This document shows, one piece after another, positions 799-10,422 of a stretch of DNA of 10,422 nucleotides. This DNA comes from Gemmatimonadota bacterium (lineage in GTDB: Bacteria > 4572-55 > J002). The position numbers and the translations under genes are program-made. Position 1 is the first letter of the stretch. Each line of letters begins with the position of its first letter. Where the stretch lies: NCBI GenBank assembly GCA_003697105.1, contig RFFQ01000093.1:1-10422 (forward strand), read 5' to 3'. The notes beneath the pieces were generated by a model that did not search any database, was not told where the DNA came from, and worked only from the letters and a program-made list of their open reading frames with translations.

Positions 799-3700
799 TT
801 ATTTCAACAGCGTCATACGGTGGGTGCGGACGACCCCCTCACCGGTTTCTAAAACATAGAGATAAACACCACTGGCAACATCCCGTTGGTACTGATCCGT
901 ACCGTTCCACTCCACGGTATGATACCCAGCTTCCATTGTCTCATCCACCAATGTGTTGACCAACTGTCCTTGCAGATTATATATCCGCAAGCTGATATGG
1001 CAGGCAACTGGCAGCCCAAAATCAATCCGAGTCTTTGGATTGAACGGGTTCGGATAGTTTTGGCTTAGAATCACCTGTTCTGGAATCATTACTTGGGGTA
1101 CAATCTTCACTTCAGCCTGAATTGCCGGAAGCGGCTGTTCATTGAACATCAGATTATCCAGCATAACGGTGCCCGTTTGGCCCACGTCTCCAAGCACCTG
1201 AAAGACGATGTTAATCAACGTCCCTTCACCTTCTAACGGCGTTAGGCGATACCCGGCCAGATGTTTAGTGCCTTCGGCGAGAACAAATCCCTCGGTTAAC
1301 GTTCCGGCGGTACGGTATTCCACAAATTCCAGCATTTCGGAATCATAATCCAGTACGGCTTGCATGGCGATAACACCCAATCCGGTAACATCCGTCACGT
1401 ACACCGGAACGATCAATTCATGATCCGGTGCGACGGTCAAATCGGTTACGGAAAGGGGATTCATCGCCACCGGATGGTCCGCTTTGTGTGCTCGGGCGGC
1501 GGCTTCTGGTGACCAGTTGCCGGTCACCTCACCATAGATTATGCCCGTGAAGTCCTGATCCGGTTGGTCTGCATCTAACGGCATATATTCATACATTTCT
1601 GGCAGCCAGAGCCACTCACCGGTACGAGCGCTACTGGAAATATGGGATGAATATTGCAGAATCCGAGCGGCATCGAATGGTGAAATCCCACCATCGCCTG
1701 TAACATCCGCCGCCATCATCTGATATTCATTGAAATCATACAAACCGGCGGAGTACTGCGCCACACGCGCCGCATCAAACGCCGAGATGGACGGGTGCGG
1801 CTGGGTCGCGTCCCCGTAACCCGCTAAGTTGACACTTAGGGTATAATTTCCTTCGGGCGTATCCATGAACGCGAACATACCGGTTTCACTGGTTTGCGCG
1901 GTAAATTCTCGATCTCCGGCGAGCATTACTTCCGTATTGGAAATCGCGGTATCGTTCCAGTATTGCACCTGACCGGTTACATCAAACAAATTACCGCCCA
2001 CATTGAAGCTAACCGGAATAACAATAGGGTTATCTATATCCGCATCATTATGGATGATGGCAAGCGAGCCTGTATATGTGCCCAAAGCGTCCACGCGGCT
2101 CGCATCCAGATACACCGTCACTTCCGCAGAGCCATCACTATTGAGGGTGAGCTGTTCGGGTGTCGTGTAAAGCCAGCGGCTGGGGGAAATCTTCACCGCG
2201 AGGTCATCTTGGACATATTCTGCGTTACAGGCAATTTCCAGACCCGCACCCGCATTATCTTCGATTCCAATAGTGGCACTGTTGAGTATGCCGCTCATGG
2301 ATTGATAATACAGATGAATATCATCATTATCATGCAAGACAATCTGGAAGGTGTAATCACCCTCTTGAGAGCTACTGAAGCGTTTCCAATGGGTGTATTG
2401 TACCGTGAAGGTGTTTCCATCCGTGTAGTAATACAGTTTACCACCGCGTGCCCGGAGGTCATCCCAGAATCCGGCAATCATGTTTTCGGGACCATCTGAC
2501 ATACCAATACAACTATTGCTGAAATCCTGGGAATCACTGGTAAAGGTGATAAAGCCGGTACTGGCAATATTGACGGTGCTAAAGGTTTGACCATAGAAGT
2601 TAAAATCAAACCCAAGTTCAATATCCGGGAAGTTATCGCTGTCGCGGCTGAACAGTTCCGTACCCACTTCGCGGATGTCGTTCCAAACAAAGAAGGGTCC
2701 GCCATCTTCATTGCTATCTGTCCAGGTGTAACCGTAATAGTCGGGTCCGCCACTGCTACGCAAAACGGGCGTATTTTGGTTACGGTCGGTTTCGCCATGT
2801 ACACCGCCTTCATCCACACCCACGACCGTCTTTTTGAGGTAACGAGTAGAGGCGGTTTCCATATCGGCGCGAATTTCCGCCATCAGGGGGAGGTCACCGC
2901 TCCCCAGATTGTCGATGGTCAACGTGACTTCAGCCATTTCACCTAAATCATTGACTTGTGCGCTGATTTCTACCGGTTCAACCGTAATTTGCGGATCCGT
3001 CACGGTGATCGATACCGGGATGTTAATGGTATTGGCACAACCAAAGTTTGCCGTTAGGGTAGTGGTATATGTTCCGGCTTCGCTGGGTGCCGTAATCCAG
3101 ACCGTGACCGTTTCGGAGTAGCGGGGCATCAATCCGTTGCCCATGGATGGGCTGGTGTCCAACCACGCCGCTTCGGGGTCTTCTGTAAAGGTATAATCCA
3201 GCGCGGCAGTGGCGGTAGCATCATTGGTTATCACAATTTCGACGGATTCCGTCTGATTTTCGTACAGATTGAGCGAAATTGCATCCGTATCCATCAGCGG
3301 AAGACATTCGCCTCCGGTAATTGTAAAGTAACAACCGACTTCTACATCCGGATGTTCCGGATCGTTGCTGAGGATGTGGGCAACGGCATAATATTCACCG
3401 TCAATCATGGTTGCTCCGCCGGCGCTTGCCGGTTGGGCATCAAAGAAGACCGATTCGGTTACCGATTCACCTGCCATTACCGTACCCATTCCCGGGTTAA
3501 ACGTGGCATACTCATAGGCGAAGTCACCCAAATCAATACCAACCAATTGGTCTGGATCGGATTGCACCATGGCACACAGCAGAATCGTACCGATTTCCCA
3601 TTGAGTGGTCAGGAACAGACCGCCCGTGTAGGGACCACTGATACCCGGGGAAAGCGTTACACCGGTTAATTCCTGATTAAAAATATCATACTGGGAGATG

Positions 3701-6700
3701 ACCGGATCACCTCCCGAATACGGGTCAAAAATCCAAAGGTAGGGTCCACCTAATGTCAGATTATCATACGCCAATCCAGTGATGCGATAGCTTGGATGAT
3801 CGTAATACTCAACGGTACCATCCCGGTGGATAAACTGGATACCTTCATAACTCCCGACCCAGAATCCATCCCGATCTTCATCGTAGGTCAGCCCGTCAAG
3901 GGAGACCAATTCTGGAATTTCAATCGTTCCAACAACGGCTTGAGCATCCAGATCAATTTGGTATAATGTATTACCCCGAGCCCCATCGGAGTAATAGGTG
4001 GCATATAAATATTCGCCATCCGAGGTAAAATCAAGGAAACCCACGGCAGCATTGATACCACTAATGACCATGTGGTCTAAAATGTTACCATTTCGATCCA
4101 GTTTGTAAATGTGGGGCCGGTTAAAATCGCCTGTGTAAAAATAGGTTCCATCAAAATATACGGCGGATTGGTACGGCGACTGTGTTTCTGCCTGCACATT
4201 CACATTGAGCAGGACATCACCTTGATCGCGTAGCACGGGAGTACTGGTACGGCTTTGCGGAAGACTGCCTTCCACCGGCAATGTGGTAGTAATTGGATCG
4301 GAATTATCCAGCGAATAATGGGGGCGGGAAAACGCTTCTTTCAAGGGACGTACTGAGCGCGCCGCCGCCACTTGAGGCACTTCCGCGTTATAATCCACCA
4401 CGATTTGGTAAGTTAAATCCCCAGAACCCGTATTTTGAATCACCACATCTACCGGGTCTGTCGTTAAACCGGTATTGCGATCAATCGATAGACGAAGTTC
4501 TTCCGTGTCAACCCCAATTTCCGGATTATAGACATTCATGGCGACCGGAACATTCAATGTTCCACTGTTGTCACCGGCTTCCCAGTGGATGAAGATGGTG
4601 CCTTCCAGCGTGCCTACCTCTTGGGCAGTATTAAATATAACGTCCATTTCCCGGCATTCCCCCGGGACGATTCCGGAATCCCAAGCTGGGCTGAACAAGA
4701 GCCAATCCACATCGGTACTCACCGTCCAGGCAATCGCTGAGGTGGAAGTTTCCGCATTACAAACATTTAAGGTTTGCGTGTACGGGGTATATGCCAGCAC
4801 AGTTTCATTCAGTTCTTCCGGCACCACTGAGACCTCTGCGGTACCGCCAGTGATGTTCATTTCAATCGGGATGATACATTGCGGGGTTTCGGGGTCGTTG
4901 GATTCAATGATCATGTTGGCATAGTACATTCCGGCAAGCAATCCGGGTTCCGGGTTGAACGTGAGTGTTGTTGGTATGGATTCGCCGCCGGCAATTACTC
5001 CTTCATACGGTTCGGCGGAAACCCAAGAGACCGGCGGATTGATCATCACCGCCAATTGATTGTGGATATACGGCTCATTACAGACAATTTCCAAGCCGCG
5101 TTGGGCATTATCCTCAATGCCGGCAACAATCGGGACGGTATCGCCGACCATCGTGTCATAGTACAATGCCATACGCCCATCGCGATGGATCACAAATTGG
5201 AACGTATATGGACCGCCGATACCGTAATAGCCCATCACGGCATCAAATTCAACAATAAACTCATCGGGACCCGCTTGGTAATAGACCGTTCCGCCCCACG
5301 GTACGCCTAAATCTGCCCAGAAAGCGGCAAACATATTTTCGGGACCATCAATATCACCGATACACGAATTGGTGTAATCCACCATATTGCTGGTGAATGA
5401 GAGATAGCCTTTGCTACAAATATAAACACTGTTAAACGTTTGCCCGTAGAATTCAAAATCGAAGCCCAAATCAAAGGGTCCTTGGGTCTCATCTGCGCCC
5501 ATCAATAACTCTACTCCACTTTCACTGATGTCGTTCCAGATAAACTCAGGACCCCCCGCTTCATCGCTGTCTATCCAGGTGTAGCCATACCAATCCGGAC
5601 TCCCTGTGTTTCGTAGATTCCGGGCATCTTGGCGGCGTTCCGCGCGAACATCGATCACACCCTGATGTTCTGCGTTCGGGGTGACATCGACCCCTTCAAT
5701 GGTCTGCGGTAATCCTCCGGGGAGGGAGAGTTCCGGTCTCAGTTGAAGATCAATGGTGTAAACCAAATCACCTTCGCCACTGTTGGTCAGAGTGAAATTG
5801 TCTGGATACGGGACATCGGTTTGCCCGACTTCAAAATCGATAGTCAATGTTTCATCGCATCCCACCGGGCTTGGTTCTATCCGCGGTACATAGACATCTA
5901 AAACCACCGGAACAGTGATTGTGCCGGAAGTTTCGTAATCCCCTTCTTGGTTGTCCGTCCAGTTGATGAGGAGATTGACCTCATTATCCCCTTCTGGGAC
6001 GCCGGTGGCATCAAAGTACAGGGTGATTTCATCGGTGGCATCAAAGCCGAGAGGCTCTTCATTCGTGTAGTGGTCTAAGGTCAACCAGCTTACGGCGGGT
6101 TCCAGTACAATTTCGTAGTCTAACGTCGTATTGGCATTTGCTCCATTGCCGATGATCAGGGTATTTTCATCGTTGGTTTCGCCGGGTTGCAAGCTCACTC
6201 GGAACGAGTCCGGCATCGCATACGGATCGGGCGCACCCCCAACAAGGTTGAATTCACAATAGACCGGGAATTCGGGTATTTCGGGGTCATTGCTTTCAAA
6301 GGTCGCCGTGGCGTAGTAGAGTCCGCTAAACAGAATTTCTGCGCCATCGTCTTCGGGGTCGGCATCAAATTTAATAGTACCCATCACTGGGGAATCTTCG
6401 GGCCACACCGAGGCGACCTCCGGTATTACCGAGAGGAACGGGAAGCTACCAACCCCCCGGGCACCTAGCAGATCACTAAACCGGGCTTGATTTACCAGAT
6501 TGGTTTGCGGATTCCAGTGATACTGACCAACCCATAGTTCACCGGCAAAATCAAATTCACATCCACCGGTAAAGAGTTCTGGCGAAACGGGGTCCACAAA
6601 GATCGTTTCTTGTTCGCCAGAAGGGTCATATAATGCCCAATTATCAGCCACTTCCGTAGTTTGCAACAAGCGGTTTGACGCTTCGTGGAAGGCTAATGTT

Positions 6701-9700
6701 GCGGGATAGTTCAAGGCAGAGGGGAAACTACTGATCAGCGTTCCCGGTTGCCCATTATCAATGCCGTCAATCACTAAAATTTGGTTTTGGAATGAGCCAA
6801 TATAGAACTGGTCGGTATTGTGGTTGTAGGAAAGACCTGAACAGCGCTGGAACATGGCGATCCAGGGACCATCTAACTGGTAGAGCAATTCACCGGTTTC
6901 AATATCCATCCCCATCAGGTAGGAGGCGTTGAAATTCTCTTGCCCCAATAACCACAGAATATTGTGATTGTGGTCGTATGCCATATCGCTGTAGCCCGCC
7001 CACGGGTAATACCCCCATTCGAGGAGGGGCACAGAGCGGATAAATGCCCCGCTTGCTTCTTCATGCAACGAAAGTTGTGGGTAACCGTTCAGTAATTGGC
7101 CAAACACCCAGACCCCATCCGGTGTCCAACATGCCAATTGTGCTTGGAGACCCTCGGCTTCCCAACTGGTTAGAATTTCACCGGTTCGTAGGCTTGATCC
7201 TGTTTTTTCCGGGGTGGTTTTACGCACCATCGCTTGAGAAAGCGGCTTGGCATTCGGTGGCAGTGACCGCCCCTCTGGAGCGCCGTAATTGTAGCTAACT
7301 TCATATAGCATGGGACCCGTACCGTTGTTGTACACGTAAATATCATCCGTGACTTCGTAACCGGCAGGCGGGTTATCCAAATCGATGGTCATATAGTAGG
7401 CATCTTCCACCACATCAATATTGGGGTTATAGATATTCATTCCGACCGGAATATCAACGGTGCCACTGCATTCACTCCCGACCCAATCGATGGAAAGTAC
7501 GGTTTCATATATCCCCACACGTTGATCGGTATTAAATGTAAGCGTGATCTCATCACAATCATTGGGGCGCAGTTGCGTCCCGGACATCATATCCAGAGAC
7601 AACCAATCTGGGAGTTCAGATGTGACCTGCCAATTCACTACCGCGTTTGAAGTGGCCGCATTACAGAAGTTCAACGTTTTTTGCAAAGGTTCATTTTCCA
7701 GCGCATATTCATAAAATTCTTCTGGAGCGGTGGACACCTCCGCACAACCGCCGGTGATATGGAAGACACACAGCACTTGTTCATCCGGCATTTCCGGGTC
7801 GTTGTTTTTAAAGTGAACATTCACAAAATAGTCATCAGCGATCAGAATGGGGGTTTCTTCACCATTCGGCTGGGCATCAAAGATGACGGTGCCTTCCAGC
7901 GGTGAATCTTCAGGCCATACAGCGGCGGCGGGCGGGTCAATTACCAACCACGGCAGGCGGTCTCTTCGACCGAGCAACGTACCAAAATCCACTTGATACA
8001 CCATGTTGACCCCGTTTACATTTTGCCGCACCATCCATAAATGACCGTACTCATCAAACTCGATTCCCGCCCCTCGACCGATACCATCATTTGCGGGGGG
8101 GTCATACTGGCTTTCAATTTCGCCGGTTTCGGGATCAACTAGATAGATATACTCCAATTCCCCATTGTTGGTCACCGCAAGTTTATTGGCGCCTTCGTGG
8201 AAGGCTAGTCCGGCCACTCCCTGAAACGGGATAGTGTTGATCGTTGCGCCTGGGGTCTCGCTATCGATTCCTTCTACGACATAGATCACCGTATAGTTCC
8301 AGCTACCGATGTAAAAGGTATCGGTATTGTTATCATAGGCTAATCCACGAGCGGAGGAGAAGGTCCATTCTCCGGTCAACGTTTCGACCACCTCTCCGCT
8401 ATCATAATCTATCCCGTAAATGGCGTTTCCTTCCAAACCGCTTACTTGTACAACCCACAAGATGTTATGGTTGGCATCGTATGCCATATCCGCGCACCAA
8501 AGCTCCATGAAGCTTTCCATACTAAGTTCTGGGGCGAGCCGCCTCCCATCTTCATACCGGTGGGAAGAGATGATCGGGTCTGGATCAAAAATGCTGTAAT
8601 GGTTCAGCCAAATGGCTTCATCGGTAGTCGCAAGCCCCCAACTATTGGGGACATCTTCCGGCACCCAACTATTGAGCACCTCACCCGTGGAGCGGATATG
8701 CCCGCTATCTTCCACACGATAGTCGATTCCGAGTGCATTTTTGGCGTCCGGGTCTGGCGGTGTCAGGATTTCCGAAGGGGTATAGTGAGGATTGCGGGTG
8801 CGCGGAAATGCCTGATAGAGCGGTTTCAAGTCTCCGTAGCGCGCTAGCATTTCCGGTGTGGCGTCAAAGGTATATTCGACTTCGTACACCAAGGGACCCA
8901 CACCGGTATTGTGAATAAAAATATCATCGAGGAACTCGTAGCCTACCGGTGGATTTTCCAGATCGAGGGTCATCTCATAGGTGTTTTCCACCACATCAAT
9001 ATCTGGATTGAAAATGTCCATGGTTACCGGAATCAAGATCGTGCCGGCACTTTCCCCACCGCTCCATTCAATCACAACGGTGGTTTCATACAGCCCGACC
9101 GCTTGGTTTGTATCATAGGTAAAATCGACCTTATGGCATTCTCCCGGTTCCAGATCGTGCCCACTCATCATACTGAGGGTTAACCAGTCAGGAATCTCGG
9201 AGGCAATTTCCCAATCGACTAAAACATTAGAGAGTTCATCGCTACACAAGGTCACCCGGTGTTGCAACGGGTCTTGAGCGACGATATAATCGTATAGTTC
9301 ATCGGTATCGGAGGTCAAGGTTGCCGTTCCACCGGTGATGTTGAAGGTACAGAGCACTTCCACATCCGGGGTAACCGGGTCGTTGCTCAAAATGTGGGCA
9401 ATTGCGAAGTATGAGCCGGCAAGCATCACATTTTCGCCGTCATCTTCGGGGTCGGCGTCAAAGTAGATCATGCCGGTTAAGCCGTTATCTTCGGGCCACA
9501 CCGAAGCGGCAGGGGGGTCTATCACTACCCAAGGCACCCCAGAATATCCTAAATCGATTCCGAAAAGAACATCCGGGTAGGCTTGGGTTATTCCGCCCAA
9601 TGTTGCGGTATTGTCGATATAATCGGTGGTGACAAATGCACCACCGGCGATACCGCTACCGTAGGTCATATCATAGGTAAAACCGGTCAGCTCTCCGGTA

Positions 9701-10422
9701 GCAATTTCCAACTGGTGGAGAATCCCCCCGCCATCTTGACTAAACAGCCAGAGGTACGGACCGCCAGGGGAATAATTATCACAGGCAATACCATATAAAT
9801 TTGCCACCGGATTTGTAATCTCTTGAACAACTTCCCAATCCCGGTTCGCAAAATAAAGCGGTGTATTATAATTGCTGTACCAGAAGCCATCCAGCCGGTC
9901 GTCGTATGTCAGACCGGTGATGTAAGTTCCTGTGGGAGACGGGATGGTATTAATCAACTCGTTGGTTTCCACATTAATAACGTGAATATTGTCATTCTCA
10001 GACCCATAAAGATATTCACCATCCCATGCAAGGTCTCGGATACCATAGATACCAATGAGGTTAATTGTATCAACTAGATTTCCCTCGCGATCCAATTTGT
10101 AAATCAGATTATCATCATATTGGCTGATGTAGAAGTACGTGCCGTCAAACTCGCACCCGACCGAGCCGTAATCTCCCAAAATGGCATTTAAATCAAATTC
10201 AAACAAAACGTCACCGACTTCACGCAAATTGCCGGAATCGGCTTCGCGACGAGACTCCACACCGGGTAAGAGATCGGTATGTTCGGTATCTTCGACGGTT
10301 TCAATTTGGGCTTGCCGGTTGCGTGTTGTGCGGAAGGATTCGTGTAAGGGGCGTAGATGTGCCGGGACTTCCATTTCAGCTAAATAATCAACTTCAACCT
10401 CGTAAAGCAACGGACCCGAACC
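799..10422 (-). CDS. Giant multidomain T9SS-secreted surface protein, 5' end outside window
   Basis: The frame is open from the window edge (first codon GGT at 10420-10422) to the TAA at 799-801, 3,207 residues. Residues here and below are counted from the Leu TTG codon at 10408-10410. That TTG is not a credible start: the upstream codons read GSGP and complete a GxGPLxYEV motif repeated inside the protein, so the real start lies beyond the window. Order seen: six Ig-like units each carrying an inserted domain (to ~2806), carboxypeptidase-regulatory-like and dockerin-like modules (2809-2972), a cohesin-like domain (2986-3104) and a T9SS type A sorting domain (3111-3203). The sorting domain predicts export through the outer membrane with surface anchoring or release. 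No catalytic motif was recognised; adhesion, scaffolding or matrix roles are inference. No terminator follows the stop directly; the nearest is at 590-630. Confidence 0.95.
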   Translation of the reverse strand, partial: GSGPLLYEVEVDYLAEMEVPAHLRPLHESFRTTRNRQAQIETVEDTEHTDLLPGVESRREADSGNLREVGDVLFEFDLNAILGDYGSVGCEFDGTYFYISQYDDNLIYKLDREGNLVDTINLIGIYGIRDLAWDGEYLYGSENDNIHVINVETNELINTIPSPTGTYITGLTYDDRLDGFWYSNYNTPLYFANRDWEVVQEITNPVANLYGIACDNYSPGGPYLWLFSQDGGGILHQLEIATGELTGFTYDMTYGSGIAGGAFVTTDYIDNTATLGGITQAYPDVLFGIDLGYSGVPWVVIDPPAASVWPEDNGLTGMIYFDADPEDDGENVMLAGSYFAIAHILSNDPVTPDVEVLCTFNITGGTATLTSDTDELYDYIVAQDPLQHRVTLCSDELSNVLVDWEIASEIPDWLTLSMMSGHDLEPGECHKVDFTYDTNQAVGLYETTVVIEWSGGESAGTILIPVTMDIFNPDIDVVENTYEMTLDLENPPVGYEFLDDIFIHNTGVGPLVYEVEYTFDATPEMLARYGDLKPLYQAFPRTRNPHYTPSEILTPPDPDAKNALGIDYRVEDSGHIRSTGEVLNSWVPEDVPNSWGLATTDEAIWLNHYSIFDPDPIISSHRYEDGRRLAPELSMESFMELWCADMAYDANHNILWVVQVSGLEGNAIYGIDYDSGEVVETLTGEWTFSSARGLAYDNNTDTFYIGSWNYTVIYVVEGIDSETPGATINTIPFQGVAGLAFHEGANKLAVTNNGELEYIYLVDPETGEIESQYDPPANDGIGRGAGIEFDEYGHLWMVRQNVNGVNMVYQVDFGTLLGRRDRLPWLVIDPPAAAVWPEDSPLEGTVIFDAQPNGEETPILIADDYFVNVHFKNNDPEMPDEQVLCVFHITGGCAEVSTAPEEFYEYALENEPLQKTLNFCNAATSNAVVNWQVTSELPDWLSLDMMSGTQLRPNDCDEITLTFNTDQRVGIYETVLSIDWVGSECSGTVDIPVGMNIYNPNIDVVEDAYYMTIDLDNPPAGYEVTDDIYVYNNGTGPMLYEVSYNYGAPEGRSLPPNAKPLSQAMVRKTTPEKTGSSLRTGEILTSWEAEGLQAQLACWTPDGVWVFGQLLNGYPQLSLHEEASGAFIRSVPLLEWGYYPWAGYSDMAYDHNHNILWLLGQENFNASYLMGMDIETGELLYQLDGPWIAMFQRCSGLSYNHNTDQFYIGSFQNQILVIDGIDNGQPGTLISSFPSALNYPATLAFHEASNRLLQTTEVADNWALYDPSGEQETIFVDPVSPELFTGGCEFDFAGELWVGQYHWNPQTNLVNQARFSDLLGARGVGSFPFLSVIPEVASVWPEDSPVMGTIKFDADPEDDGAEILFSGLYYATATFESNDPEIPEFPVYCEFNLVGGAPDPYAMPDSFRVSLQPGETNDENTLIIGNGANANTTLDYEIVLEPAVSWLTLDHYTNEEPLGFDATDEITLYFDATGVPEGDNEVNLLINWTDNQEGDYETSGTITVPVVLDVYVPRIEPSPVGCDETLTIDFEVGQTDVPYPDNFTLTNSGEGDLVYTIDLQLRPELSLPGGLPQTIEGVDVTPNAEHQGVIDVRAERRQDARNLRNTGSPDWYGYTWIDSDEAGGPEFIWNDISESGVELLMGADETQGPFDLGFDFEFYGQTFNSVYICSKGYLSFTSNMVDYTNSCIGDIDGPENMFAAFWADLGVPWGGTVYYQAGPDEFIVEFDAVMGYYGIGGPYTFQFVIHRDGRMALYYDTMVGDTVPIVAGIEDNAQRGLEIVCNEPYIHNQLAVMINPPVSWVSAEPYEGVIAGGESIPTTLTFNPEPGLLAGMYYANMIIESNDPETPQCIIPIEMNITGGTAEVSVVPEELNETVLAYTPYTQTLNVCNAETSTSAIAWTVSTDVDWLLFSPAWDSGIVPGECREMDVIFNTAQEVGTLEGTIFIHWEAGDNSGTLNVPVAMNVYNPEIGVDTEELRLSIDRNTGLTTDPVDVVIQNTGSGDLTYQIVVDYNAEVPQVAAARSVRPLKEAFSRPHYSLDNSDPITTTLPVEGSLPQSRTSTPVLRDQGDVLLNVNVQAETQSPYQSAVYFDGTYFYTGDFNRPHIYKLDRNGNILDHMVISGINAAVGFLDFTSDGEYLYATYYSDGARGNTLYQIDLDAQAVVGTIEIPELVSLDGLTYDEDRDGFWVGSYEGIQFIHRDGTVEYYDHPSYRITGLAYDNLTLGGPYLWIFDPYSGGDPVISQYDIFNQELTGVTLSPGISGPYTGGLFLTTQWEIGTILLCAMVQSDPDQLVGIDLGDFAYEYATFNPGMGTVMAGESVTESVFFDAQPASAGGATMIDGEYYAVAHILSNDPEHPDVEVGCYFTITGGECLPLMDTDAISLNLYENQTESVEIVITNDATATAALDYTFTEDPEAAWLDTSPSMGNGLMPRYSETVTVWITAPSEAGTYTTTLTANFGCANTINIPVSITVTDPQITVEPVEISAQVNDLGEMAEVTLTIDNLGSGDLPLMAEIRADMETASTRYLKKTVVGVDEGGVHGETDRNQNTPVLRSSGGPDYYGYTWTDSNEDGGPFFVWNDIREVGTELFSRDSDNFPDIELGFDFNFYGQTFSTVNIASTGFITFTSDSQDFSNSCIGMSDGPENMIAGFWDDLRARGGKLYYYTDGNTFTVQYTHWKRFSSSQEGDYTFQIVLHDNDDIHLYYQSMSGILNSATIGIEDNAGAGLEIACNAEYVQDDLAVKISPSRWLYTTPEQLTLNSDGSAEVTVYLDASRVDALGTYTGSLAIIHNDADIDNPIVIPVSFNVGGNLFDVTGQVQYWNDTAISNTEVMLAGDREFTAQTSETGMFAFMDTPEGNYTLSVNLAGYGDATQPHPSISAFDAARVAQYSAGLYDFNEYQMMAADVTGDGGISPFDAARILQYSSHISSSARTGEWLWLPEMYEYMPLDADQPDQDFTGIIYGEVTGNWSPEAAARAHKADHPVAMNPLSVTDLTVAPDHELIVPVYVTDVTGLGVIAMQAVLDYDSEMLEFVEYRTAGTLTEGFVLAEGTKHLAGYRLTPLEGEGTLINIVFQVLGDVGQTGTVMLDNLMFNEQPLPAIQAEVKIVPQVMIPEQVILSQNYPNPFNPKTRIDFGLPVACHISLRIYNLQGQLVNTLVDETMEAGYHTVEWNGTDQYQRDVASGVYLYVLETGEGVVRTHRMTLLK
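802..1080 (-). other. T9SS type A C-terminal sorting domain
   Basis: Residues ~3111-3203, an Ig-like FlgD-type domain ending at the stop codon. Visible hallmarks are SQNYPNPFNPKTRIDFGLP, LRIYNLQGQLV, MEAGYHTVEWNGTD, VASGVYLY and a terminal MTLLK. In the known family this domain is recognised by the type IX translocon and is removed or processed at the cell surface. It fixes both the reading direction and the true C-terminus of the giant protein. Confidence 0.92.
1099..1455 (-). other. Cohesin-like domain
   Basis: Residues ~2986-3104. The sequence follows the cohesin pattern: ELIVPVYVTDVTGLG, MQAVLDYDSEMLEF, a central GYRLTPLEGEGTLINIVFQV and a final VMLDNLMFNE. Cohesins bind dockerins. Here the domain follows a dockerin-like module in the same chain, so an internal or chain-to-chain contact is possible (inference). 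Confidence 0.75.
1495..1986 (-). other. Carboxypeptidase-regulatory-like and dockerin-like region
   Basis: Residues ~2809-2972. A short regulatory-like beta-sandwich comes first (VTGQVQYW, TSETGMFAF, PEGNYTLSV). A duplicated helix-loop repeat follows: SAFDAARVAQYSAG and DVTGDGGISPFDAARILQYSS. The second loop (residues 2902-2913) has Asp at positions 1, 5 and 12, with Thr at position 3, a near-canonical type I dockerin calcium loop. The first loop (2868-2879) has Ala, Gln and His at positions 1, 3 and 5 and keeps only the terminal Asp, so it probably does not bind calcium in the usual way. A trailing FTGIIYGEVTGNW segment completes the module. Confidence 0.8.
2188..2751 (-). other. NIDO-like beta-sandwich insert 2 (type C)
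   Basis: Residues ~2554-2741. It is a sister of insert 1 of this type: YGYTWTDSNEDGGP, VWNDI, LGFDFNFYGQTF, TGFITF, NSCIG, GPENM, AGFWDDL, YTFQIVLHDN, IGIEDN and DLAVKISP, all in the same order. It is followed by the closing Ig half (RWLYTTP, LDAS, GTYTGSLAI, IPVSFNVGG) and then directly by the dockerin region, with no BACON-like domain. Confidence 0.7.
2992..3306 (-). other. BACON-like Ig domain 5, without the cysteine pair
   Basis: Residues ~2369-2473. It has the pattern AAWLDTSPSMGNGLMP, a TVTVWITAPSEAGTYTTTL strand and INIPVSITVTDPQ. The equivalents of the conserved cysteine pair are absent; the one cysteine in the domain body (in FGCAN) lies at a different position. Confidence 0.55.
3523..4218 (-). 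other. Beta-propeller insert 4 (type A)
   Basis: Residues ~2065-2296. It is a sister of insert 1 despite lying about 2,000 residues away: FDGTYFY, HIYKLDRNGNI, DGEYLY, GLTYDEDRDGFW, LAYDN, GGPYLWIF and the final GIDLGDF occur in the same order. Five blade-like repeats are visible. The linker in front carries VRPLKEAFSR, and the junction is LRDQGD. Confidence 0.75.
4513..4842 (-). other. BACON-like Ig domain 4
   Basis: Residues ~1857-1966. It contains LNVCNAETST, VDWLLFSP, PGECREMDVIFNTAQEVG and VPVAMNVYNPEIGV. Cysteines 1884 and 1919 align with the pairs in copies 1 and 2. It matches those two better than copies 3 and 5, although the inserted domain in front of it is of a different type. Confidence 0.6.
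5041..5601 (-). other. NIDO-like beta-sandwich insert 1 (type C)
   Basis: Residues ~1604-1791, entered through LRNTGSPDWYGY. Hallmarks in order are YGYTWIDSDEAGGP, WNDIS, LGFDFEFYGQTF, a KGYLSF strand, NSCIG, GPENM, AAFWADL, GGTVYY, YTFQFVIHRDG, AGIEDN and QLAVMINPP. This domain is recurrent in secreted FCB-group proteins, often beside proteases or sorting domains, and resembles nidogen-like (NIDO) domains around the FW and strand motifs. Its function is not established; ligand or matrix binding is inference. Confidence 0.7.
5887..6234 (-). other. BACON-like Ig domain 3, cysteine-free
   Basis: Residues ~1393-1508. It contains VSWLTLD, a YFDATGVPEGDNEV strand and a final ITVPVVLDVYVP, fitting the same Ig/BACON-like pattern. 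It lacks both cysteines that are conserved in copies 1, 2 and 4, which sets it apart as a divergent copy. Confidence 0.55.
6451..7179 (-). other. Beta-propeller insert 3 (type B)
   Basis: Residues ~1078-1320, a sister of insert 2 with matching DMAYDHNHNILW, NTDQFYIGSF, GIDNGQPGT and LAFHEASN strings. Five blade-like repeats can be drawn. It is entered through LRTGE and left through FPFLSVIP, the second half of the Ig domain. The adjacent B-B placement suggests a unit-length tandem duplication of units 2 and 3. Confidence 0.75.
7417..7740 (-). other. BACON-like Ig domain 2
   Basis: Residues ~891-998. It is the closest partner of copy 1: LPDWLSLDMMSG matches IPDWLTLSMMSG, and FNTDQRVGIYET matches YDTNQAVGLYET. 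The conserved cysteines are at 916 (LNFCNA) and 952 (PNDC). The domain ends in VGMNIYNPNIDV, which leads into the next unit. Confidence 0.6.
7963..8682 (-). other. Beta-propeller insert 2 (type B)
   Basis: Residues ~577-816, between the Ig halves of unit 2. Five blade-like repeats are visible. Diagnostic strings shared with insert 3 are DMAYD(A/H)NHNILW, the D-x-x-T/S-G-E turn, NTDxFYIGS, GID and LAFHE. This subtype differs from inserts 1 and 4, which lack NHNILW and LAFHE. The domain is flanked by the junction motif IRSTGE on its N-side and by PWLVIDPP, the return into the Ig fold, on its C-side. Confidence 0.75.
9001..9327 (-). other. BACON-like Ig domain 1
   Basis: Residues ~362-470. The core pattern is HRVTLC, DW, a P-D-W-L-T-L segment, PGEC and YDTNQAVGLYETTVVIEW, ending in PVTMDIFNP. 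The motif W-L-x-hydrophobic plus an aliphatic xVGxYE(T/G) strand is what BACON-type carbohydrate-associated Ig domains show. Two cysteines (389 and 425) recur at equivalent positions in copies 2 and 4. Confidence 0.6.
9541..10212 (-). other. Beta-propeller insert 1 (type A)
   Basis: Residues ~67-290. Five blade-like repeats of about 40-45 residues are visible, built on patterns such as FDGTYFY, WDGEYLY, GLTYDDRLDGFW and GGPYLWLF followed by a strand with a tge-like turn. The closest relative in this protein is insert 4: both contain FDGTYFY, IYKLDR, GLTYD, DGFW, GGPYLW and GIDLG in the same order. Propellers of this YVTN/NHL-like kind usually bind proteins or ligands; no specific ligand can be read here. 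The preceding linker contains LRPLHESFR. Confidence 0.75.

Follow-up and report, generated by a model that had tools for sequence, protein, structure and literature searches.

Split Ig-like domains as carriers of complete cargo domains in a very large, putatively secreted bacterial protein

This analysis indicates that the window, by which we mean the whole stretch of 10,422 nucleotides under study, probably encodes a very large secreted surface protein whose stalk is made of ASH/BACON-type Ig domains, intact spacers alternating with split carriers of complete cargo domains. In related proteins, the corresponding Ig loop would act as a general cargo socket over many bacterial phyla, into which no fewer than six unrelated folds, one of them an entire subtilisin zymogen, have been swapped on many occasions, as an independent counterpart of the split domains of RTX adhesins; this broader reading is one towards which we lean with some reserve.

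Organization of the Protein

The window corresponds to an entire contig of a 4.18-Mb draft genome in 199 contigs, and carries on its minus strand a single 3207-aa ORF (799-10422), the N-terminus of which is lost at the contig end. Its architecture consists of repeats of a split Ig domain with cargo followed by an intact Ig domain, closing with U6; the C-terminal region then adds a carboxypeptidase-regulatory domain and a dockerin-like pair, followed by a cohesin domain and a type IX sorting tail (Table 1). The original prediction had proposed six Ig-like units split by cargo domains in A-B-B-C-A-C order, and these six units are indeed present in one frame, U6 ending at window position 1993. 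It had overlooked the five uninterrupted BACON-like Ig domains interleaved with them, as well as the C-terminal segments.

Contig C124 encodes a paralogue, of at least 1477 aa, that likewise runs off a contig end. Both paralogues are broken inside repeated unit sequence (window 10422 and L011:1-35), and both contig breaks are probably assembly breaks at repeats.

Table 1. Features of the window protein, in order from its N-terminal side.
Feature	Position	Strand	Evidence
U1 first Ig half, truncated by contig end (aa 1-12, GSGPLLYEVEVD)	10387..10422	-	ORF translation
U1 linker and cargo A (propeller)	9535..10386	-	DUF6923 match 8.2e-08; 35% identity to U5 cargo
U1 second Ig half (PWVVIDP...FDADP...SNDPVTP)	9331..9534	-	profile alignment
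Intact Ig-like spacer 1 (BACON-like)	9004..9330	-	continuous profile match; Pfam BACON weak
U2 first Ig half	8866..9003	-	profile 3-49
U2 linker and cargo B (complete propeller, model residues about 105-343)	7957..8865	-	AlphaFold2 and fold search
U2 second Ig half	7750..7956	-	profile 48-112
Intact Ig-like spacer 2	7423..7749	-	BACON_2 1.3e-06; continuous profile match
U3 first Ig half	7285..7422	-	profile match
U3 linker and cargo B	6445..7284	-	35% identity to U2 cargo; no Pfam match
U3 second Ig half	6241..6444	-	profile match
Intact Ig-like spacer 3	5884..6240	-	profile match
U4 first Ig half	5743..5883	-	spliced Pfam match, profile match, fold match
U4 linker (low-confidence, model aa 50-95) and cargo C (NIDO-like)	5032..5742	-	NIDO 0.0019; AlphaFold2; profile match to PDB 8gl6 chain D
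U4 second Ig half	4846..5031	-	spliced U4 vs PF22544 24-95/100; fold match
Intact Ig-like spacer 4	4522..4845	-	profile match
U5 first Ig half	4390..4521	-	profile match; spliced U5 vs PF22544 23-73
U5 linker and cargo A (propeller subtype)	3520..4389	-	35% identity to U1 cargo
U5 second Ig half	3313..3519	-	profile match
Intact Ig-like spacer 5	2992..3312	-	BACON_2 9e-05; profile match
U6 first Ig half	2857..2991	-	spliced Pfam matches; unspliced choice_anch_D 10-60/108, this half only
U6 linker and cargo C (NIDO-like)	2182..2856	-	NIDO 6.8e-05
U6 second Ig half	1993..2181	-	spliced U6: BACON_2 2-79/94, PF22544 12-89/100, choice_anch_D 27-107/108
Carboxypeptidase regulatory-like domain PF13620	1765..1980	-	Pfam match
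Dockerin-like pair (PF00404)	1654..1791	-	E 0.0011, under curated cut-off; ADVTGDGGISPFDAARI = one Ca-binding-type loop by reading
Cohesin domain PF00963	1144..1452	-	1.4e-08
C-terminal T9SS type A sorting-like tail	823..1056	-	TIGR04183 30.8 bits, cut-off 23

Reassembly of the Split Ig Domains

In each of the five complete units, the carrier profile breaks at one and the same column (49/50 of 112), U1 retaining merely the end of its first half where the contig starts; this column has descriptive value, as the profile was built from both domain classes, including these very sequences. The flanks measure about 46 residues (first half) and about 65 residues (second half). An interruption is indeed found in each unit, with a length of about 225-303 residues rather than the 170-310 initially proposed. 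The predicted GxGxL motif precedes the split, but it reads GxGxM in U3 and the strand runs about 8 residues past it; similarly, the W/F position expected after the insert is present, but is occupied by Y in U5.

Splicing the two halves together restored matches to curated profiles. Against the Pfam HYDIN Ig family (PF22544, 100 positions, curated cut-off 25.5 bits), spliced U4 gave 7.7e-06 over positions 24-95 (26.5 bits, above the cut-off), U5 gave 0.0019 over 23-73 and U6 gave 5e-05 over 12-89 (18.8 and 23.9 bits, both below it), all three being co-linear through the junction. The choice-of-anchor D profile likewise spanned 28-107, 31-98 and 27-107 on spliced U4, U5 and U6, and BACON_2 spanned 2-79 on spliced U6. 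In the unspliced protein, the best stretch for HYDIN Ig was limited to residues 1799-1850 (profile 47-94 of 100), and that for choice-of-anchor D to residues 2472-2523 (profile 10-60 of 108). Spliced U2 and U3 had no Pfam match, and their assignment rests on alignment to the other units. The intact Ig domains align with the spliced carriers straight over the split site, where they have just a few residues; judged from these alignments, they are the best internal (empty-site) control for splitting. Spacer 2 exceeded the BACON_2 cut-off of 25 bits (28.7), as did the whole protein (48), spacers 1, 3, 4 and 5 being below it or without match.

From a structural point of view, about 100 residues drawn from the range 1-346 of the U4 AlphaFold2 model (13-sequence alignment, mean pLDDT 73.5, linker residues 50-95 below 50) superpose on single solved ASH/PapD-type Ig domains. 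The alignments with 7n6g (Z 12.7, rmsd 1.9, 100 aligned), with the PapD-like domain of human HYDIN (2e6j, 112 residues; Z 11.3, rmsd 2.5, 101 aligned), and with these two, 7som and 6fvi together (Z 11.1-12.7, rmsd 1.6-2.9, 98-108 aligned) agree in this respect, strand pairing being read off these fold matches rather than from coordinates, in a model of moderate confidence. As both U4 halves sum to about 108 residues, nearly all of each participates in the Ig match. Foldseek returned no match under E 0.001 for the full U4 model (the PBD-split domain of FrhA, 9ybq, was sixth, with probability 0.18), because the cargo dilutes the Ig matches; the VIA alignment resolved the Ig.

The nested topology, previously inferred from the usual contiguity of ASPM/SPD-2/Hydin-like domains, is thus supported by co-linear matches to curated profiles across the junction, as well as by the U4 model and by the five intact domains of this protein, which fall in the same length class. 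The first half alone does not amount to a complete Ig domain, given its small size and the single Ig in which the U4 model puts both flanks. An ordinary tandem array, in which the flanks would be separate complete small domains with globular domains between them and without nesting, would suit a long multi-domain protein, and the linker before the cargo is indeed long and modelled with low confidence. This reading is nevertheless highly improbable: first halves match the N-terminal half of Ig profiles only, second halves the C-terminal half only, the spliced halves fit one profile, and tandem complete domains are contradicted by the single-Ig fold match of U4.

Cargo Domains of the Window

Sequence identity reaches 35% between the A cargos (U1 and U5), 35% between the B cargos (U2 and U3) and 46% between the C cargos (U4 and U6), every other pair being at 22-26%. 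The three different folds announced for these inserts therefore correspond to three sequence classes, but to two folds only, since A and B are both propellers. Cargo A was recognised through DUF6923 in U1. Cargo B is a complete closed propeller in the U2 AlphaFold2 model (mean pLDDT 75.0), close to glutaminyl cyclase 3mbr (Z 23.3, rmsd 2.6, 213 aligned, model residues 105-343) and to YjiK 3qqz (Z 23.1, rmsd 2.5, 218 aligned); propellers fill the list of this fold search, so that the match concerns the cargo and not the Ig halves.

Cargo C matched Pfam NIDO with 29.7 for the whole protein against a cut-off of 25, and with 18.7 and 23.4 for single units, over profile positions 1-54 of 186 only. 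A profile of the C-type unit matched chain D of PDB 8gl6 (RemA/RemZ; residues 52-191, 2.7e-12), deposited as RemA. This match needs the profile, as the single U4 cargo sequence had no match among solved structures in the PDB. At profile level, the NIDO-like cargo thus matches a T9SS substrate of the gliding-adhesin family of F. johnsoniae, to which it may be linked. Scanning viral sequences with the NIDO-unit alignment yielded no relative. The last strands at the end of NIDO-like cargos (YxHDxLAVxI, for instance at residues 1444-1470 of locus L047) weakly resemble the pre-split Ig strand, and contiguous profile matches there can therefore be false intact domains.

The Split Point in Related Proteins

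The proposal of an insertion-tolerant scaffold accepting different inserts was supported and much extended by a search for other split-Ig proteins, which gave 195 split units in 117 proteins, counts that are lower bounds, since, of the six units of the window, U4 and U6 alone are recovered as complete by the iterated pre- and post-split models. The loci comprised a set fetched by the NIDO-type unit and a set fetched by the intact-domain model in 192 diverse genomes; as they were mostly selected by NIDO cargo, the share of NIDO inserts is not a frequency. Located with separate half profiles, the halves were 4-32 residues apart in 54 domains and 154-478 apart in 195, with none between, a split/intact ratio that is not a frequency either, as the second set was chosen for matches beginning at the split point. 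The first half was followed by the second 253 times, vs. 43 order breaks, and the intact domains of relatives have 4-10 residues at the split point.

The inserts formed 26 groups by BLAST clustering (E 1e-3); some of these groups share a fold, and we therefore claim at least six folds rather than 26. In addition to the cargos described above, SGL (SMP-30-like propeller, 3e-10), DUF4394 propeller (1e-11), InhA-like_MAM (2e-6) and Laminin_G_3 (6e-6) domains were found at the split point, together with weakly ThuA-like Rossmann domains and several unannotated domains. The L047 cargo matched Peptidase_S8 (5e-60) and a Fervidolysin-type prodomain (6e-15). Named hosts belong to Krumholzibacteriota, Zixibacteria, Calditrichota, Eisenbacteria, Cloacimonadota, Myxococcota, Planctomycetota, Nitrospirota and others, among which phyla represented by a single bin need care, as most hosts are metagenome bins.

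Individual loci deserve mention. Nested in a split Ig domain at L047:6640-7944 is an entire S8 subtilisin, which has its own prodomain and in which the catalytic motifs DTG, HGTH and GTSMA can be seen. Single proteins of L158 (frame +1) and L111 (frame +1) combine five or six split carriers with three or four unrelated folds. Locus L078 (frame -2, around residues 1463-1802) shows two intact Ig domains and then a third, interrupted at the split point by a short stretch of roughly 25-30 residues that is probably disordered, possibly an intermediate.

Cargo Exchange and Duplication

In a tree of 51 carriers from 15 proteins holding more than one cargo class, all five L158 carriers (two ThuA-like, two propellers, one NIDO-like) grouped in a single supported clade (100/99), within which sister relationship of a propeller carrier with a ThuA-like one was also supported (98/86), so that unrelated cargos occupy sister scaffolds of a single protein. 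A single-clade constraint was rejected for the propeller carriers (p-AU 2.6e-08) and for the ThuA-like carriers (p-AU 1e-29), a label which is based partly on sequence reading, not on Pfam alone. Cargo and carrier histories thus differ, which points either to cargo exchange or to homogenisation of the carriers by recombination between units. Exchange of cargo while the carrier stays is supported for the family; this claim rests on the AU tests, pooled identity comparisons being made of non-independent pairs from mixed species. The exchange predicted from the window accordingly held at the family level, where scaffolds with the same cargo are polyphyletic; inside the window it may have occurred as well, but whole-unit duplication was not rejected there for B or C.

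Indeed, it is plausible, if slightly disfavoured in our opinion, that carrier and cargo were only ever copied together within the window protein. When the scaffolds of the window and of its paralogue were placed in a tree, based on few data, a single clade was not rejected for C (support 81/80) or B, and A was borderline (AU p 0.052). Against duplication, the second half of U1 (cargo A) is nearer to those of U2 and U3 (53 and 50%) than to that of U5 (45%), and the U4 and U6 cargos are 46% identical vs. 21-25% for their Ig halves, both points being weakened by long branches; in relatives, moreover, same-cargo scaffolds are strongly polyphyletic. The exchange signal of the family could itself be partly an artefact of concerted evolution, neighbouring Ig segments being homogenised by recombination, in line with the L158 scaffold DNA, in which identity between units of different cargo reaches 87% for the first half and 71% for the second. 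We consider this somewhat unlikely, as cargo can itself be moved by recombination in the carrier arms, and as the diversity of cargos at one site across phyla needs repeated gain.

Comparison With Known Systems

In pilus adhesins of the RrgA type, a binding domain is nested within Ig-type domains, RrgA being a single adhesin at the pilus tip, not known as a repeated, exchangeable socket. The principle of an Ig domain split by cargo in giant surface proteins is already known from RTX adhesins. MpIBP, FrhA and AhLap contain split Ig-like ("companion split") domains, which are reported to project ligand-binding domains off axis (PMC12077191, PMC10865825); such domains also appear in Graham et al. 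(2024), as cited in these two articles. In both RTX adhesins and the window protein, a discontinuous Ig-like sandwich hosts a complete domain and alternates with uninterrupted Ig-like domains within a giant protein. Several cargos unrelated to one another are known from RTX split domains (CBM, PBD, PA14, RTX roll), while the cargos here include propellers and NIDO-like domains in the window, and a protease too in relatives. The exit point also differs, after the first strand in the RTX-like unit of AhLap (PMC12077191) and after the third/fourth strand in the window carriers, which are of the ASH/BACON type, number six per chain and are followed by a T9SS-like tail instead of RTX/T1SS features. 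A Pfam scan to E 1 detected no RTX repeat family in the window protein, the N-terminus of which is missing, and solved RTX split domains were not among the sequence-search matches to its carriers. Filing the protein as an RTX adhesin was rejected.

The reassembled carrier shares profile and fold with the ASH (PF22544), PapD-like and choice-of-anchor D Ig families, but these models are uninterrupted domains, whereas the window carriers are interrupted. The intact spacers partly match BACON_2, of the BACON domains (PF19190, PF13004). BACON domains are known as tandem repeats, including in crAss-like phages, and nested cargo is not mentioned in the abstract of one account (PMC6949934). DDxP proteins are likewise giant bacterial surface proteins proposed to grow by insertion of varied modules; they are of the RTX type, their modules terminate in DDxP motifs interpreted as target-site duplications, and these modules do not occupy one Ig-fold loop (PMC7730722). 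A literature search that covered few subscription papers retrieved no description of an ASH/BACON-type socket, RTX split domains and DDxP proteins being the only nested-Ig/BACON insertions found. The differences from RTX adhesins lie in the Ig family, the insertion point, the secretion tail, the presence of six carriers per chain and the cargo range, including enzymes.

Export and Putative Function

The C-terminal tail passes the TIGR04183 cut-off, while its Pfam Por_Secre_tail score (19.8) is below the cut-off of 27. SprA_N was detected in the same genome (5.4e-20, in a 2069-aa frame) and in none of 14 control genomes. Since the genome has SprA and the tail passes a T9SS cut-off, the window protein is likely exported by the type IX secretion system of its host. 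An NYPNPF-like tail motif was present in only 20 of the 117 related ORFs, a good number of which are truncated where the fetched loci stop, and these counts do not establish T9SS export as general.

From a mechanistic point of view, the chain of about eleven Ig domains may form a stalk, each cargo being attached via a disordered linker and lying in the gap that separates the third/fourth strand from the W-L-S-x-x-P strand. Such a split point would set the cargo beside the stalk, with its N and C ends together, so that each carrier would hold its cargo sideways and several binding or enzymatic heads could be presented in a row, much as in RTX adhesins with their split domains. The propellers and NIDO-like domains of the window would, by analogy, be ligand-binding heads, and a display or adhesion role of the protein is suggested. 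It may be envisaged instead that the protein is no adhesin and that an enzyme or cohesin-dockerin assembly at the cell surface is built on it as scaffold, the cargos being structural or catalytic. The cohesin and dockerin-like pair at its C-terminus, 14 cohesin matches in about ten frames of the genome and the full S8 protease held in an equivalent socket by a relative are in line with this proposal; we judge it unlikely, as the window cargos match no enzyme family convincingly and the dockerin match is under its cut-off. A cohesin-dockerin network in the genome is nonetheless possible, from the C-terminal segments and the cohesin matches.

Split domains are hard to recognise via homology (PMC10865825), and annotation of giant proteins of uncultured bacteria will thus misread the halves as absent or degenerate Ig domains. 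With a fixed split point and flanking profiles, functional heads can be listed directly, the cargo being whatever sits between the halves, and the repeated polyphyly of cargos renders domain exchange at one structural site testable. If the broader reading of a general cargo socket is true, the loop would be a natural plug-in system for surface proteins, and the split site is a natural candidate for domain grafting in protein engineering. The L047 subtilisin is held at both ends, which makes its activation as a protease of interest.

Near the opposite contig end, the minus strand of the window carries at 71-577 a 168-aa frame that starts like a signal peptide and has beta-helix-like sequence.
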